Source of the DNA: Prolixibacter sp. NT017
Lineage (GTDB): Bacteria > Bacteroidota > Bacteroidia > Bacteroidales > Prolixibacteraceae
NCBI RefSeq assembly: GCF_009617875.1
Contig: NZ_BLAV01000001.1
Coordinates: 1-64,000 of the forward strand
Length of the DNA stretch: 64,000 nucleotides
Direction of reading: 5' to 3'
The notes under the pieces were generated by a model that saw only the letters and a program-made list of their open reading frames with translations, had not been told where the DNA came from and made no database searches. Shown in pieces: positions 614 through 55,220 of this stretch (position 1 is the stretch's first letter; every line of letters begins with the position of its first letter). The position numbers and the translations under genes are program-made.

Positions 614-3600
614 ATGAAAAAGAGTTTATTAACCCTTTTGGTGGTCCTTCTTGGCTTTACAGTAGTGATGGCACAAAACATCACCGTTAAAGGGAAGGTA
701 ACTGGCGCGGATGATGGAAAGCCCATACCGGGAGCCAGTATTTTAGTAAAAGGTACCACAACCGGTACCATTACCGATTTTGATGGTAACTACTCGTTAA
801 AAGTTCCGGCTGACGGTGCGCTGGTATTCTCGTTTTTGGGAATGAAGACCGTAGAGCAACCGGTGAACGGACAGAAAGAAATTAATGTGACCCTTTCAAC
901 TTCTACTAAAGATCTGGGTGAAGTTCAGGTGGTAGGTTATGGTGTTCAGCGGAAGCAGGACATCACTGGTTCCATTGCCGGGGTGAAAGGAGCCGATTTG
1001 ATTAAGCAACCGGCTCTGACAGCTACCCAGGCTATTCAGGGAAAAGTGGCCGGTGTACAAGTTGTGAACTCCGGGGCCCCGGGTTCTGCTCCGCAGGTGC
1101 GTATTCGGGGAACAGGGACCATTCTGGGTGGAGCGAAGCCGCTTTATGTTGTCGATGGAGTTATTACCGACGATATTCGCAATATCAATAACTCGGATAT
1201 TGTCTCGGTAGATGTGCTGAAAGATGCTTCGGCTGCCGCTATCTACGGTGTGCGTGGTGCAAATGGTGTGATCATTATTACCCGTGCCGGCGAGAAAGGT
1301 AAAATGAAAAATTTCGTACGACGGCTATGTTGGCACTAATGTAGCAGCCAAGGTAAAAATGGCAGACTCGAAATTGTATGCTGAATATACCAACGAAGCT
1401 CTGGGCTACGATGGAAAAGCTCCGGCATTTGATTTGAACAACCTGCCTCCATACAATACCGATTGGTTCGACGCAATTACCCGGAAGGGAGTTAGTCAGA
1501 ATCATAACCTTTCGGTAAGTGGTGGAAATGATAAGGCAACCTATTATTTCAGCATGGGTTATAAAAGCGATCAGGGAATCCTTGACGGAAACAATTACGA
1601 TCGTCTGACACTCCGTTCAAATAATACGTATAAGGTGACCAAGTCCTCGAAGTGGGTGACAACATTGGCCTGTCCCGATATAATTCGGACAACAAGCCTT
1701 ATTCGGCTTTCACCGCAGCTTATCGTCAGGCGCCGACTGTTCCGGTGAAGGATAAAAGCGGAAATTATGGTTTCACTGACATCAATAACGTTGGTAACCC
1801 GAAAGCAACACTTGATTATACGAATGATCAAAGCTGGGGAACCCGTATTCAGGGGGGCGGTTTACGCCAAAGTTGATTTCACCAACATCTCTCCAGTTTA
1901 AATCGAATATGGGAGTTGACTTATCGGAAGATCACGGGCGTTATATACAACCCGGTTTACACAGTTTCCGCAACTCAAAAAAATGAAATATCCAAATTGA
2001 GTCTGCATCAAAACACCAATGCTCACTGGATTTGGGATAATTACTTTACCTACAACAACCGCTGGGGAAATAGCCGGTTGAAACTGATGGGAGGTACAAC
2101 GGCTGAAAAATACCGGACGCAATATATTGATGCTGCCCGTCAGAATGTACCTGCACAAAAGAATTACTGGTATCTCGATCTTTGGGCGATGCAGCATCTG
2201 CAACCAACGGCAGTAATGGCACAAAGAATACCCGTAACTCCTACTTAGGGACGTGTCAACTACAGCTTCGCCAACAAGTACCTGTTTACCGTACTATTCG
2301 TTACGATGGCTCTTCGATGTTTCCATCCAATAATCGTTGGGCAACGTTCCCTTCAGTTGGACTTGGTTGGGTGCTGACCCAGGAGAATTTCCTGAAAGAC
2401 AATGCGTGGCTGACTAATCTGAAATTGGCGTGCCAGCTGGGGGTAAAATCGGTAACGATAATATACCTGCTGATGCGTTTACTTATCTCCATCACTCTGA
2501 TTTGGCGTATGTGTTTGGTCCGGATCAGGCTTATACCAATGGTGGTACGATAACCGATATCAAAGAACCCGAATCTGAAGTGGGAGGTAACAACAGAAAC
2601 CCGACCTGGGATTGGAATACGGATTGTTCGACAATCGCCTTTCCGGTGAGTTTGACTATTACAACAAACTGACCTCGGATGCGTTGATTTTTGCTCCGAT
2701 TGCCGAATATTTGGAGATAACGATGGGAAAATTTCTGACCAACAAAGCTGATATCCGAAATACTGGTTTTGAATTCTCTGCCAACTGGCGCGAATAAGTC
2801 ACCTCCGATTTCAGCTACAATATTGGTTTGAATGTGACGACCAACAAAAACCGCATCGAGAAAGTCGGCGGTGGTTTGCCAATCAACAGCGGTAGTTTGG
2901 GGCAACGGTCAGATAACAACACAGACGGCAGAAGGCCAGCCGATTGGTTCCTTCTGGGTATACCAGACCGACGGTATTTTCCACAACCAATCGGAACTGG
3001 GACGCTTACGTGAATAGTAATGGTCAGCCTTTGATGCCAAATGCTCAGCCAGGTGATCTGAAGCTGGTAGACGGAATCATGATGGCGTTATTGATGATAA
3101 AGACCGTTATTATGCTGGGTCGTACAATCCCCACTGATGATCGGGTTGAACCTCGGAGTGAACTATAAGAACTGGGATTTCTCGGTAGATTCTTATGGTA
3201 ACTTTGGTGGCAAAATCTACAACGGTAAGAAAGCTCAGCGCTGGGGTGGTGAAAATATCGAGGCGTCATTGGCCAACCGTTGGACACCGGATCACACGAA
3301 CACGAATATCCCAAGAGCTTCCGATGCTGTACCTGTGGCTTCGGATTACTATATTGAGTCTGGTAATTTCTTCCGGTTTAACACCTGACATTGGGTTATA
3401 CGCTCCCCAAACATTGACCGAAAAGCTCTCGATAAGTCGCTGTCGTTTCTATGTGGCAGCCCAGAACGCAATTACACTGACAGGTTATAGTGGTTACAAT
3501 CCTGAATTACCGGGACAGATATCACGGATTTCCGGAAACTCTGACAATGGAGCCAACACGACCAACTCCGGAACCCTTAACTCTGGAATTGATTTGAGCT

Positions 3601-50592: not shown

Positions 50593-52383
50593 ATGATGAG
50601 GTACCTGTTCGGCATAATCCTTCTGATGGCTTGGTTTTCTGCGCGCGTTGAAGCGCAGGGATGTGAACAGTTGGTTTGGAGCGACGAGTTCAACTATACT
50701 GGTACTCCCGATCAGCAAAAGTGGAGCTTTGAAACTGGTGCTGGTGGATGGGGAAATAACGAACTTCAGTATTACACCGACCGGCTTTCCAATGCTGAGG
50801 TAAAAAATGGCAATTTGGTCATTACTGCCCGGAAAGAGAGCTATCAGGGGAGCGATTATACATCGGCCCGTTTAATTACCTACGAAACAGGAGGGTATTG
50901 GACCTACGGACGTATCGAAGCCCGAATGAAATTGCCTTACGGACAGGGAATCTGGCCCGCATTCTGGATGCTGGGCAAGAGTTTCTTCGAGGGTACTTCG
51001 TGGCCAGCCTGCGGTGAGTTGGACATCATGGAGATGATTGGTGGTGGTGATAATGACAATACGGTTTATGGAACGGCACACTGGTATAACAATGGTAATG
51101 CAGATTATGGTTTGTCGTACACCAATCCGGATAAACTGGCCAATGCTTTCCACGTTTACGCTATCGAATGGGACAGCCAGTCGATTAAGTGGTACTTCGA
51201 TAATAATTTATATTGCACGCTGGATATTACACCTGCCTCGTTGTCTGCCTTCCATAATCCGTTTTTTATTATTCTGAATATTGCTGTGGGCGGTAACTGG
51301 CCGGGTAATCCTGACGCGACAACTGTTTTCCCGCAAACCATGGAAGTGGATTATGTACGGGTGTACAGCGGGACGCCTCCCAATCCAACGGTTACGGGGC
51401 CGTCAACCGCTACAGCAGATGCTACCGTTCAGTTTTCGACTCAGGATATTCCCAATGCTACTTATACCTGGACGATTCCGGCAGATGCAACGATTGTTTC
51501 AGGCGACGGAACCAACAGTATCTCTGTTCAGTGGGGAAATACCTCGGGAGATGTTTCGGTTTCGGTAACAACCAGTTGTGGAACATATGATTCGAATAAG
51601 CTGACTGTGGCTGTTGTTAAACTACCACCCAGCGATCCGTGGTATGTGCCGCACACGGTTGGTGGGTCGGTCAACTGGGAGGTTGTTCAGACCAACAACA
51701 ATACGATATCGCTTTCGATGGCAGGCGAGGAGTTGGAAGTGGATTATGACGTGCAGAATCCCAGTGCATCGCCGGCCATTTATTATCCGTTCGATGGAGT
51801 TTACAATTTGACAACCTCGTCGACGGCTGTGCTGGAGTTGAAAACCGAGGCGGGAAACGCACCTTCGAACATGCGTTTCGAACTAGTGGATGTAAACGGC
51901 AACGTGAATACAGCCGACTTGCTGAAGATTGATTCACCCAACGATGATGGTGCGTATCACATTCATGCCCATATTTTTGGTCAGAATCCGGATAATATCT
52001 TCAAGCTCGACCAGATTAAGGGAATGCGCCTTTATTTCAATTATGGAGTGCTGGGAACTGTTGGTGCAGGTAAATTCTGGATTAAGCCGGTAGAACTGAC
52101 CAGCGAAGACATAACGACAGGCATTACTGACCTGAAAAGTCATCGGCTTACGCTGTTTCCAAATCCGGTAAAAGATATTTTATCGGTTCAACTGCCTCAG
52201 GAAAGCTATGGCGCTTCTATTATTAGCATTCACGATATGAATGGCCGTCTGTTGAGACGATTCAATACCGAATCGTTGGGCGGACCTTTGCAATTGAATC
52301 TTAGTGATTTTGCCTCCGGTGTTTATTTCCTCTCGATTCAGGTGGGGGATAAACGGTTTGCCGGGCAGTTTATCAAAAGATAG
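50593..52383 (+). CDS. Multidomain GH16 endoglucanase with T9SS sorting domain
   Basis: 596 residues. Signal peptide (YLFGIILLMAWFSARVEAQ), GH16 domain (about 22-255) with GELDIMEMIGGG: E142, D144 and E147; then an Ig/PKD-like domain (about 258-345, NATYTWTIPADATIVSGDGT), a jelly-roll domain that may bind carbohydrate (about 355-500) and a C-terminal type 9 secretion sorting domain (about 515-596, LTLFPNPVKDILSVQL, DMNGRLLRRF, SGVYFLSIQVGDKRFAGQFI). The sorting domain indicates export across the outer membrane to the surface or medium, so this is the likely first-attack enzyme of PUL3. Confidence 0.92.
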   Translation: MMRYLFGIILLMAWFSARVEAQGCEQLVWSDEFNYTGTPDQQKWSFETGAGGWGNNELQYYTDRLSNAEVKNGNLVITARKESYQGSDYTSARLITYETGGYWTYGRIEARMKLPYGQGIWPAFWMLGKSFFEGTSWPACGELDIMEMIGGGDNDNTVYGTAHWYNNGNADYGLSYTNPDKLANAFHVYAIEWDSQSIKWYFDNNLYCTLDITPASLSAFHNPFFIILNIAVGGNWPGNPDATTVFPQTMEVDYVRVYSGTPPNPTVTGPSTATADATVQFSTQDIPNATYTWTIPADATIVSGDGTNSISVQWGNTSGDVSVSVTTSCGTYDSNKLTVAVVKLPPSDPWYVPHTVGGSVNWEVVQTNNNTISLSMAGEELEVDYDVQNPSASPAIYYPFDGVYNLTTSSTAVLELKTEAGNAPSNMRFELVDVNGNVNTADLLKIDSPNDDGAYHIHAHIFGQNPDNIFKLDQIKGMRLYFNYGVLGTVGAGKFWIKPVELTSEDITTGITDLKSHRLTLFPNPVKDILSVQLPQESYGASIISIHDMNGRLLRRFNTESLGGPLQLNLSDFASGVYFLSIQVGDKRFAGQFIKR

Positions 52384-52410
52384 TTTTTTTCATAGGATTG
52401 TTTTAGCTTG

Positions 52411-52439
52411 CCCCGGCCTTGGATGGTCGGGGTTTTTTA
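52411..52439 (+). terminator. Terminator of the PUL3 operon
   Basis: CCCCGGCC and GGTCGGGG form an 8-bp stem (one G-U pair) with loop TTGGAT, followed by six Ts. Confidence 0.88.
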
Positions 52440-52513
52440 TTCGCTTTATGTTCATGGCGTTATTCAAAATAATTGGTATTTTCATTCCCGTAAACTAACT
52501 AAATAACTGAACC

Positions 52514-53389
52514 ATGAAAAAGGTTTTTTTGATGGTGCTTCTCTGCGCCTTGACTTTCTCATTGTATGCTCAAAACCTTCCGGTGAAAATGGAAGAGATG
52601 ACCGCACCCCAATATGTTAACGCGGTAGACCAGTCGAATGCTACCTGTATTATCCCGATAGGCGTATTGGAAAAACACGGTCCGCATCTTCCGTTGGGAA
52701 CGGATTTGATTGATGTGCGGGAAGTGGTTTTGCGTGCTGCCGCTAAAGAGTACGCGATTGTTTTTCCGCCCTATTACTTTTCCCAGATTTTTGAGGCACG
52801 GCATCAGCCGGGGACCATTGCCTACAGTCAGAAATTGATTTGGAATGTGCTGCAGGAAACCTGCGACGAATTAGGCCGAAACGGCATTAAGAAAATTATT
52901 TTGGTAAGCGGACATGGAGGTAACAGCAGTTTTCTTCCGTTTTTCTGCCAAAGCCAGTTGGCATCGGAAAAGGATTATGCTGTCGTGTTATTCCAATCCA
53001 GCAGAAATGCAGAGGCGTATAAAGAAATAAATAAGGAACTGGTTCCCGGTGGTTCGGGACATGCAGGACAGTCGGAAACTTCGGTGATGTTGGCTCATCG
53101 TCCCGATTTGGTACACATGGACAAAGCGACTTCTCAATCGGGGAAAGATCAGGATAGGATTAAAGGAATCGACTCCGACTACGAAGGTATTTGGTGGTAC
53201 GCCAAATATCCGAATCACTATTGCGGCGATGGCTCATTGGCCACAAAAGAGCTGGGTGAAAAGATTCTGAATGCGCAAGTGGATGAATTGGTTACCATGC
53301 TGAAGCAAGTGAAGGCCGATAACACGATTCTCGAGATGCAGAACAAGTTCTACGAGCAGGCCAAACACCCGATGGACACGAAACAGTAA
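52514..53389 (+). CDS. Exported creatininase-family amidohydrolase
   Basis: 291 residues with a signal peptide (MKKVFLMVLLCALTFSLYAQ). Creatininase family (creatinine amidohydrolase-like) motifs: IPIGVLEKHGPHLPLGTD contains the Glu, His and Asp metal ligands, then LVSGHGGNSSFLPFF with a further His and HAGQSETSVML with a Glu. Members hydrolyse cyclic amides or formamides, and most are cytoplasmic; an exported version is unusual. The substrate is not readable. It follows the PUL3 terminator and is probably monocistronic. A hairpin at 53397-53422 follows the stop codon. Confidence 0.87.
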   Translation: MKKVFLMVLLCALTFSLYAQNLPVKMEEMTAPQYVNAVDQSNATCIIPIGVLEKHGPHLPLGTDLIDVREVVLRAAAKEYAIVFPPYYFSQIFEARHQPGTIAYSQKLIWNVLQETCDELGRNGIKKIILVSGHGGNSSFLPFFCQSQLASEKDYAVVLFQSSRNAEAYKEINKELVPGGSGHAGQSETSVMLAHRPDLVHMDKATSQSGKDQDRIKGIDSDYEGIWWYAKYPNHYCGDGSLATKELGEKILNAQVDELVTMLKQVKADNTILEMQNKFYEQAKHPMDTKQ

Positions 53390-53394
53390 CAAAG

Positions 53395-53487
53395 AAAAAG
53401 GATGTCCGGGTGGACATCCTTTAACCTGCTTAACCTAACCTAATCTAACTAACTAGTCCTATGAAAAAAACTTGCTCCTTGTTTTCA
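53395..53487 (-). ncRNA. Putative small RNA, module 1
   Basis: Minus strand. Promoter-like GCATCTTTG ends at 53491, so transcription would start near 53487 and end after a perfect 11-bp stem (53397-53407 with 53412-53422) and five Ts. It carries GUUUUUUUCAUAGGA and UUAGAUUAGGUUAGGUUAA. The same hairpin may also end the creatininase transcript on the plus strand. Confidence 0.5.
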
Positions 53488-53510
53488 TTACAAAGATGCA
53501 TCGAAATTGT

Positions 53511-53536
53511 GTTAGCTCGTTTTAAGCGAGGTTAAA
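53511..53536 (-). promoter_or_regulatory. Dyad upstream of small-RNA module 1
   Basis: Plus-strand TTAGCTCG-N7-CGAGGTTAA is an imperfect inverted repeat about 20-45 bases upstream of the promoter-like element. The block CTCG-TTTTAAG-CGAGGTTAAA is identical in module 4, suggesting an operator for a shared regulator. Confidence 0.45.
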
Positions 53537-53643
53537 GAGTTTTAATAATCTATCTGATTATAGCCAATGTGCGTTAAAAAGTATAAAAAGACGAATTTTT
53601 TCGAACTGAACCGCATACTAAATTATTTTGCCCGTAGGGCCAT

Positions 53644-53730
53644 TAAAAAAGGGAGAATCCGATGATTCTCCCTTTCAGCTTTACCTAACCTAATCAATCA
53701 TTCCTATGAAAAAAACAACTCTTATCTCGC
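53644..53730 (-). ncRNA. Putative small RNA, module 2
   Basis: Minus strand. Promoter-like GCACCTTTG ends at 53734. The RNA contains GUUUUUUUCAUAGGAA and UUAGGUUAGGU, and ends in a perfect 12-bp stem (53648-53659 with 53664-53675) followed by six Ts. The stem sequence is unrelated to that of module 1. Confidence 0.5.
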
Positions 53731-53753
53731 CTTCAAAGGTGCGTCATTATTGT

Positions 53754-53778
53754 GTTAGCTTATTATAACCGAAGTTAA
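53754..53778 (-). promoter_or_regulatory. Dyad-like element upstream of module 2
   Basis: GTTAGCTTA then TATAACCGAAGTTAA, the counterpart of the module 1 dyad in sequence position, but the inner arms are degenerate. It is recognised mainly by alignment with the other copies. Confidence 0.35.
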
Positions 53779-53823
53779 GGAAATTGAAATCGTCGAACTT
53801 CGTGCCTTAAAACGGGGGAGAAT

Positions 53824-53905
53824 AAAAAAGAGACAGCTTTTTTCAAACTGCCTCTTTTCCCTGTTTTCACTAATCCAACTAATCCTATGAAATTGTCCCT
53901 GTTGT
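53824..53905 (-). ncRNA. Putative small RNA, module 3 (most divergent)
   Basis: Minus strand. Promoter-like GCTATCTTG ends at 53909. The seed is shortened (AAUUUCAUAGGAUUAG) because the plus strand reads CCTATGAAATTG. The terminator stem pairs AAAAGAG with CTCTTTT and CAG with CTG around a long loop, with six Ts. The whole copy is shorter than the others. Confidence 0.45.
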
Positions 53906-53927
53906 TTGCAAGATAGCAATCGATAGC

Positions 53928-53953
53928 GTTAACTCGTTGTAAGGTGTGCTAAT
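53928..53953 (-). promoter_or_regulatory. Dyad-like element upstream of module 3
   Basis: GTTAACTCG is conserved, but the second arm has decayed (GGTGTGCTAAT). Position relative to the promoter-like element matches the other modules. Confidence 0.3.
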
Positions 53954-54009
53954 AAAAACTAAAACCATTTCCGGCGCTCCTTTTTTTCCTTTTCGGGACA
54001 CCGCGAGAT

Positions 54010-54104
54010 AAAAATGAGAAAGGATGCCAAAACTGACATCCTTTCTCTTTACGATTCAATCTAACCAAACCTACATTTATGAAAAAATTGTTTCTGCTTT
54101 TCAC
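54010..54104 (-). ncRNA. Putative small RNA, module 4
   Basis: Minus strand. Promoter-like CCACCTTTA ends at 54108. The RNA carries CAAUUUUUUCAUAAAUGUAGG and UUGGUUAGAUUG, and ends with an 11-bp stem (54016-54026 with 54037-54047) followed by T-rich sequence. The GGATG...CATCC stem core is shared with modules 1 and 5. Confidence 0.48.
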
Positions 54105-54127
54105 TTGTAAAGGTGGCACCTTTTTGT

Positions 54128-54154
54128 GTGAACTCGTTTTAAGCGAGGTTAAAT
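54128..54154 (-). promoter_or_regulatory. Dyad upstream of small-RNA module 4
   Basis: GTGAACTCG-TTTTAAG-CGAGGTTAAA. CTCG-N7-CGAG pairs exactly and the block is identical to module 1 over about 18 bases, well above the similarity of the surrounding sequence. Confidence 0.45.
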
Positions 54155-54201
54155 AAGTTTAATAGATAGTTTTCGGACTATCTTACCTGATGCTTGCTTT
54201 T

Positions 54202-54290
54202 AAAAAGAAAAAAGGATGCATGGTGCGTGCATCCTTTTTCTGCTTAACCTAACTAACCTAATTCTATGAAAAAAACTTGCTCTTGTTACA
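54202..54290 (-). ncRNA. Putative small RNA, module 5 (nearest to ahpC)
   Basis: Minus strand. Promoter-like CATATTTG (54301-54294) fits the Bacteroidota -7 element TAnnTTTG apart from its first base. The RNA holds GUUUUUUUCAUAGAAUUAGG and UUAGUUAGGUUAAG, and ends with a 12-bp stem (54209-54220 with 54228-54239) and six or more Ts. Its UUUUUUUCAUAGA is exactly complementary to the start of the PUL2 susC (19100-19112). Confidence 0.5.
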
Positions 54291-54313
54291 CTACAAATAT
54301 GCAGCGGATTTTG

Positions 54314-54340
54314 GTTAAGCCGAACTAACGGAGGTTAAAG
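54314..54340 (-). promoter_or_regulatory. Dyad-like element upstream of module 5
   Basis: GTTAAGCCG-N6-CGGAGGTTAAAG. The arms differ from those in modules 1 and 4 (CCG/CGG instead of CTCG/CGAG), but pairing is kept and the flanking GGTTAAAG is conserved. Confidence 0.4.
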
Positions 54341-54437
54341 AATATTAAGGAATTAGGCTTATTATGAGCAGTATTGTTAAAAACAGCAATAAAGCAGTCC
54401 GAAATACAAAATTCTGCTAAAAGAGCGCTGCGGAAAT

Positions 54438-54590: not shown

Positions 54591-55220
54591 TTAGTGATTA
54601 GACAGGTAAGAAGCAACGCTGTCGGCTGATTCTTTCATTGCATCCTGACCTTCGGTCCAGTTAGCCGGGCATACTTCGCCGTATTGCTGGAAGTGGTGCA
54701 ATGCATCTACCATACGCAGAGTTTCGTCTACGTTACGGCCAAGCGGCATGTCGTTGATCACTTCGTGACGAACAACGCCTTCCTTGTCAATCAGGAACAG
54801 TCCGCGGTAAGCTACCGGCTCGCCTTTGAATACTGAATTTCCTTCTTCATCCAGGTCGTATTCTCCGGCCAGTACGCCATATGCTTCAGAAATGGTTTTT
54901 GACAAGTCGGCTACGATAGGATATTTTACACCTTTAATACCACCGTTGTTCTTTTCAGTGTTCAACCATGCCCAGTGTGAGAATTCTGAATCGATAGAGC
55001 AGGCAACTACTTCAACATCGCGTTTTTTGAATTCATCGATTTTAGCCTGGAAAGCATGAAGCTCTGTCGGGCAAACAAAGGTGAAGTCGAGTGGATAGAA
55101 GAAAAATACAACGTCTTTCTTACCAACGAATTGCTCCAGTGAGAAATTTTCTACAATGTCATTTCCGTTTACTACGGCTTTTGCATTGAATACAGGTGCT
55201 TTTTTTCCTACTAAACTCAT
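54591..55220 (-). CDS. ahpC: Alkyl hydroperoxide reductase subunit C (2-Cys peroxiredoxin)
   Basis: 209 residues. The peroxidatic Cys is in FYPLDFTFVCPTELHAFQ, the resolving Cys in YGEVCPANW, and the GGIKGVKYPIVAD and AYRGLFLIDKEG segments are standard for typical 2-Cys peroxiredoxins. It reduces hydrogen and organic peroxides in the cytoplasm. No ahpF follows, so the electron donor is probably thioredoxin or an unlinked AhpF. It is divergent from a PerR/Fur-type regulator with dyad boxes in the shared spacer, which fits peroxide control. Confidence 0.95.
   Translation of the reverse strand: MSLVGKKAPVFNAKAVVNGNDIVENFSLEQFVGKKDVVFFFYPLDFTFVCPTELHAFQAKIDEFKKRDVEVVACSIDSEFSHWAWLNTEKNNGGIKGVKYPIVADLSKTISEAYGVLAGEYDLDEEGNSVFKGEPVAYRGLFLIDKEGVVRHEVINDMPLGRNVDETLRMVDALHHFQQYGEVCPANWTEGQDAMKESADSVASYLSNH

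Follow-up and report, generated by a model that had tools for sequence, protein, structure and literature searches.

Putative FopS-like anti-SusC small RNAs in a seed-diversified tandem array of Prolixibacter sp. NT017

The closest described system is FopS, a 14-member multicopy family of small RNAs (sRNAs) in Bacteroides thetaiotaomicron. As the FopS paper reports, these RNAs block susC translation at the start codon, as was shown experimentally, and the RRM protein RbpB opposes them (PMC11697453). The paper places nine copies in intergenic regions, four antisense to genes and one in a 3' UTR, describes no strong sub-diversification among them, and gives a canonical promoter together with a supposed regulator (PMC11697453). 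A second RNA, GibS (RF04182), shares the R1 seed GUGUUUUUCAUAGUAUUAGAU with FopS. Here, we describe five modules in the genome of Prolixibacter sp. NT017, which encodes three RRM_1 proteins, and compare them with these RNAs. An earlier note on this DNA had held that no element like them was described in Bacteroidota; FopS (RF04319; PMC11697453) is the same kind of RNA.

Anatomy and conservation of the modules

In the window (the whole 64,000-nucleotide stretch of DNA analysed), five tandem modules occupy positions 53386-54339 of the minus strand, between a creatininase gene ending at 53389 and ahpC (54591-55220, minus strand). Read 5' to 3' on the minus strand, each has TTAAC-like motifs in its upstream element, next a -7 box near TAnnTTTG and then a short leader; after these come UUUUUUUCAUAGGA or one of its variants, GGUUAGGUUAA-type blocks, an 11-16 bp hairpin and Ts. 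The bodies are U-rich, and each is complementary (antisense) to a start region, for example CCUAUGAAAAAAA, a property of the body that the earlier note overlooked.

Module c1 (53386-53536) has TTTAAC at 53536-53531, CTAAC at 53515-53511 and the -7 box CATCTTTG at 53498-53491; its predicted sRNA (about 53484-53391, ends inferred) has a CAU at 53463-53461 and a terminator hairpin at 53422-53397. Module c2 (53639-53779) carries the box CACCTTTG at 53741-53734, a CAU at 53708-53706 and a terminator (predicted sRNA about 53728-53643), and c3 (53814-53952) a degenerate box TATCTTGC at 53915-53908, a CAU at 53889-53887 and a terminator (predicted sRNA about 53908-53823). The corresponding elements of c4 (54006-54153) are CACCTTTA at 54115-54108, a CAU at 54081-54079 and a terminator at 54047-54016 (predicted sRNA about 54100-54013), and those of c5 (54195-54339) are CATATTTG at 54301-54294, a CAU at 54268-54266 and a terminator at 54240-54208 (predicted sRNA about 54289-54205), all on the minus strand. 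A covariance model built from the copies, R1, scored 84.8 bits on c1, 82.6 on c2, 64.3 on c3, 69.1 on c4 and 76.7 on c5.

The five modules stand at the same place and in unchanged order in P. denitrificans and P. bellariivorans, whose creatininases are 99% and 90% identical to that of NT017, while the spacers diverge. Compared with P. bellariivorans, identity from c5 to c1 was 138/146, 143/149, 106/145, 124/142 and 148/152 for the modules, versus 86/104, 27/43, 21/53, 20/34 and 61/110 for the stretches above them. The least conserved module, c3, has the -7 box TATCTTGC here and TACCTTTG in P. bellariivorans. The five-copy minus-strand array of the earlier note is thus real, and its prediction of five small RNA genes with individual promoter-like elements and terminators is well supported by the comparative evidence. 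In another genome of the genus (G003), we found only two copies, of which the second resembles a chimera, with a flank and GTTCAC that fit c4 and a body that fits c1. Over whole stretches, the upstream part of this second copy is closer to c1 (41/46 identical) than to c4 (37/47), and its body matched c1 at 92/105 and c4 at 67/107 positions.

In the NT017 genome, the R1 model placed two arrays of five copies (53 kb and 570-571 kb), one of four (4.521 Mb) and one of two (3.103 Mb), plus a single copy at 2.174 Mb, giving about 18 modules once a further copy, found in a GH16 gene's 3' UTR, is included. Over 61 genomes, it gave a match at E 1 in 60: all 37 genomes of the family had a best E of ≤0.0034, and 23 of the 24 others were matched more weakly (best 2.6e-4). 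Among the matches listed (E to about 0.005), at least 14 of the 37 family genomes have, on one strand, two or more copies whose starts are no more than 400 nt apart, and the largest array listed has eight copies (G033). Since four matches in the NT017 genome lie antisense to SusC starts, those elsewhere need not all be sRNA genes. Three tandem FopS copies about 250 nt apart were seen in a genome of another family (G168). Two arrays, one in G033 (L164, 3937-4200) and that at 3.103 Mb of NT017 (L182, 2304-2514), lie near three and two tRNA genes, respectively. Each of three modules in L166 (G019:C56) seemingly has a pair of successive seeds, CATAGAAAG... and then CATAGATAAG.

The GH16 copy, a sixth copy of the seed in the window (TTTTTTTCATAGGATTG; 52384-52446, plus strand), belongs to the 3' UTR that follows the GH16 gene at 50593-52383, and was exposed by one of four genome matches in an anti-seed pattern search. 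A hairpin with a T-run follows at 52410-52433 of the plus strand (z -2.0 when folded alone). The operon encodes SusC, SusD, a PKD protein, GH3 and two GH16 proteins. The copy is kept in P. denitrificans and P. bellariivorans; the latter is without the second GH16 gene, and there the seed and hairpin come directly after the first. Against the SusC start near 538.6 kb, the copy gave z -4.7 with 15 perfect pairs over the AUG. FopS-14 of B. thetaiotaomicron is likewise 3'-UTR-derived, according to the FopS paper (PMC11697453).

Predicted promoters and terminators

A covariance search, which the earlier note had proposed as a check, found the copies across the family as promoter-bearing modules. 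For the promoter analysis we used 64 of 70 model matches, leaving out six weak ones, all opposite to the array strand. The -7 box TAnnTTTG was present in 58 of the 64, versus 147 of 3100 shuffles; the exceptions in the window are c3 and c4. The CAnCTTTG-like element that the earlier note had assigned to every copy is a TAnnTTTG-like -7 box that is degenerate in copies 3 and 4. The dyad it had also assigned to every copy was clear in copies 1 and 4 only, by a dyad-pattern search, and the wider conserved upstream feature is a set of phased TTAA repeats, not a dyad. Anchored on the -7 box, the 58 modules have TTTAA at -48 to -44, TTTAAC at -38 to -33, TT at -27/-26 and TTAAC at -17 to -13.

We counted TTAA spacings in 30 of the 64 array promoters, hand-picked to limit near-identical copies. 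Pairs exactly 10 bp apart occurred in 18 (at most 4 in dinucleotide shuffles), pairs 20 bp apart in 22 (at most 3), and pairs 30 bp apart in 15, the last a count without a shuffle comparison. Among 16 classical FopS promoters, namely those fitting a fixed pattern in 13 loci, 9 had TTAA at a spacing of 10 (shuffles at most 3); of 12 of these promoters, 11 had TTAA at -54 to -52 and 7 had it at -64 to -62. The 10-bp phasing is common to the arrays and the classical FopS promoters, whereas the placement differs, being -48/-38/-17 in the arrays and mostly -63/-53 in FopS. We take the phased TTAA to be a candidate operator that a protein would read along a single helix face. It would offer a concrete candidate for the site of the regulator supposed in the FopS paper (PMC11697453). 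The operator patterns gave few matches outside the arrays, and the regulator was not found by these patterns.

Two other upstream sequences were noted. Roughly 23 nt ahead of the -7 box, 5 of 12 classical FopS promoters (L198, L199, L200, L202 and L203) have a TGTTATATAACA-like palindrome. An TTTAACGTTCGTTAAAAC element with a -7-like box is found at 2618662-2618707 (plus strand) of the NT017 genome (L267; also L266 and L268); it is kept in three Prolixibacter genomes and precedes a gene for a small secreted protein, which itself lies upstream of a TonB receptor.

Folded singly, all five copies formed a terminal hairpin of 11-16 bp (z -2.5 to -4.8), and their 5' structure was weak. A plain terminator consensus scan found those of c1, c4 and c5 and missed c2 and c3; it gave 5 sites in 1.3 kb versus 1.3 expected, the other two being beyond the array or on the plus strand. 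In a hairpin alignment fitted to the model, 97.8% of cells were paired and 9 of 9 pairs had changed on both sides somewhere, compared with 35-66% of cells paired when the alignment was slid by 1-3. The compensatory arms of the earlier note are therefore genuine covariation, confined to the terminator and expected of any intrinsic terminator.

Predicted pairing with SusC start regions

To score pairing, we took the 44 SusC genes over the cut-off, one of which has an internal stop, and dropped one without an upstream ATG (L045), leaving 43. A SusC gene at 680-3385 of the window is disrupted by many stops and frame changes, and was excluded from the set. The background comprised 513 gene starts from 39 genome stretches, or 510 after removal of three SusC starts.

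With the CAU opposite the AUG, all five copies paired better over the 12 nt upstream with the 43 SusC starts than with the 510 others (p 1.2e-6 to 1.8e-12), and this register was the best of 26 offsets (-10 to +15) for every copy. SusC was still favoured among ATGAAAAA genes only (29 versus 28; p 1.2e-2 to 1.7e-5). By duplex energy, which ignores target folding and proteins, 18 SusC genes were among the best 56 of 560 starts, with 4.3 expected. When nine seeds of the genome were considered, at least one gave z < -2 in 33 of 43 SusC starts versus 101 of 510 others (p 4e-14). The R1 model itself placed 4 of its 29 non-array genome matches antisense on SusC start codons (0.01 expected), and three more cover starts of other exported proteins (13 of the 29 loci checked).

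In 20 sets of arm shuffles that kept the U-run and CAU, the mean z was -0.59 and the best -0.93, compared with -1.11 for the real copies; the number of SusC starts below z -2 (25) was within the range of these sets (mean 17.7, maximum 27). Shuffles of the 12-nt segment that pairs upstream of the AUG reached the observed SusC mean in 13, 13, 4, 10 and 1 of 200 for c1 to c5. Several starts of other genes equal the best SusC starts in pairing, and many of the non-SusC starts among the best partners have signal-peptide-like N-termini. A preference of the seeds for SusC of their own genome was not clearly seen (43 own SusC and 10 from each of three genomes). These analyses support a pairing bias to SusC starts; they do not support SusC specificity.

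The antisense of the five seeds reads MKKTCSLF, MKKTTLI, MKLSLLF, MKKLFLLF and MKKTCSC. The best SusC partner of c1 starts near 3,557.4 kb (z -5.0), that of c2 near 2,424.5 kb (-3.9; the seed of the 4.521 Mb array gave -4.1 there) and that of c3 near 4,466.9 kb (-4.2), and the seed of the 570 kb array was the best of the nine for 12 of the 43. Read in same-genus loci L176 and L178, the seed of this five-copy array at 570-571 kb has UUUUUA followed by UUCAU, the antisense of ATGAATAAAA and not of ATGAAAAAA. These energies suggest that the copies may divide labour among transporters: they differ in the codons they would match, so together they would cover different ones.

We favour, at a probability of roughly 0.7, the view that each module is a separate gene for a FopS-like, trans-acting sRNA directed against SusC. 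It starts from the anatomy, conservation, common upstream element and SusC-start pairing bias observed above, and adds what we infer from them: transcription, a regulator, a translational block and a division of labour. A regulator, probably bound to the TTAA repeats on one helix face, and the Bacteroidota housekeeping sigma factor at the -7 box TAnnTTTG would start transcription, which the intrinsic terminator would end after about 80-95 nt. The 5' part of the sRNA would then pair with mRNAs for outer-membrane glycan transporters of the SusC type, and with those for some other exported proteins, with the CAU on the AUG, the U-run on AAA AAA codons and the following stretch on the 5' UTR, thereby blocking translation initiation.

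It is possible, if unlikely, that the sRNAs are real and SusC is not their main target. MKK-type exported proteins generally, or a few non-SusC mRNAs, would then be regulated, and the SusC enrichment would be a by-product of A-rich SusC start regions. The non-SusC starts among the best partners, the model matches on starts of other exported proteins and the overlapping shuffled-arm counts all fit this account; however, upstream pairing favoured SusC even within ATGAAAAA genes, and the real mean energy beat all 20 arm-shuffled sets.

Two further accounts do without an RNA function. On the plus strand, each copy does hold a short reading frame (24, 20, 9, 25 and 20 codons) whose beginning is signal-like, as if the array encoded five small exported peptides with ATGAAAAAA starts and owed its conservation to coding. 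We consider this very improbable, given that frame lengths and C-termini are unrelated, that single-base indels in the A-run just after the ATG differ between species (c2, c4 and c5), and that both conserved signals, the terminator and the -7 box, indicate the minus strand. Spread of a mobile or repetitive element without RNA function would explain the multiple tandem copies and the chimera-like second copy of G003, but seems extremely improbable: whole promoter-body-terminator units are conserved over their spacers, and searches of 50,697 phage and 72,556 plasmid records gave no match.

Relation to FopS and other small RNAs

At the gathering threshold, a tRNA was the only Rfam match in the window. 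In a permissive scan, FopS came first, with 39.8 bits for c5, 29.7 for c2, 29.6 for c1 and 18.9 for c3; c4 was unlisted and none of the five reached the gathering score of 56, and we therefore call the copies FopS-like. Run against 15 array loci of the family, the FopS model gave one match at E ≤0.05 (39.6 bits). Conversely, R1 matched FopS sites in 13 of 13 loci at E ≤0.31 over 39.5 kb, again a weak signal; convergence on similar targets could mimic the seed. Among 295 genomes sampled from the order, 55 passed the FopS cut-off; of the 81 with any FopS match at E 0.01, NT017 was the sole member of Prolixibacteraceae, and it was below the cut-off. The FopS R1/R1' seed GUGUUUUUCAUGGUAUUAGAUUUAAGGUUAA near the 5' end was not found in the copies, which keep the U-run, the CAU and a GGUUAA-like block. 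Common descent with FopS is plausible, judged from these weak matches in both directions and the TTAA phasing common to both.

We most likely see FopS-like anti-SusC sRNAs in a seed-diversified tandem array. If so, RNA control of polysaccharide loci would extend from the Bacteroidaceae of the gut to a family from the environment, with a new arrangement in tandem arrays with diversified seeds, and one polysaccharide locus would have a predicted anti-SusC seed in its own 3' UTR. We tentatively suggest, as an idea that may well prove wrong, that Prolixibacteraceae maintain antisense libraries that can expand, built of tandem sRNA genes whose start-codon seeds differ: individual arrays would lean towards different subclasses of transporter and would be grown and reshuffled by recombination, one regulator would switch them all via the phased TTAA, and seeds would also sit in 3' UTRs of polysaccharide loci. 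Were this true, a cell using one glycan would thereby silence another glycan's transporter. We found no report of tandem FopS-like arrays in the literature on FopS, GibS, Bacteroidetes or Prolixibacter sRNAs and SusC, with most subscription journals outside the scope of the search; PMC13370916 deals with another RNA.

GibS gave weak matches on four copies (best 25.9 bits, cut-off 115) and, unlike the copies, is longer and has a second seed and other targets. Like FopS, the copies are predicted short multicopy sRNAs with their own TAnnTTTG promoters (degenerate in c3 and c4), a weakly structured 5' part bearing a U-rich CAU seed and then the GGUUAA-like block, and a Rho-independent terminator (in single folds of all five); predicted pairing covers SusC start codons, and one copy is 3'-UTR-derived. 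Unlike in FopS, the stretch 5' of the seed CAU is longer by about 10-15 nt, and the copies stand in tandem arrays with differing seeds. In other phyla, Qrr, LhrC and OmrA/B likewise comprise several similar sRNA genes thought to act jointly, as noted in the FopS paper (PMC11697453).
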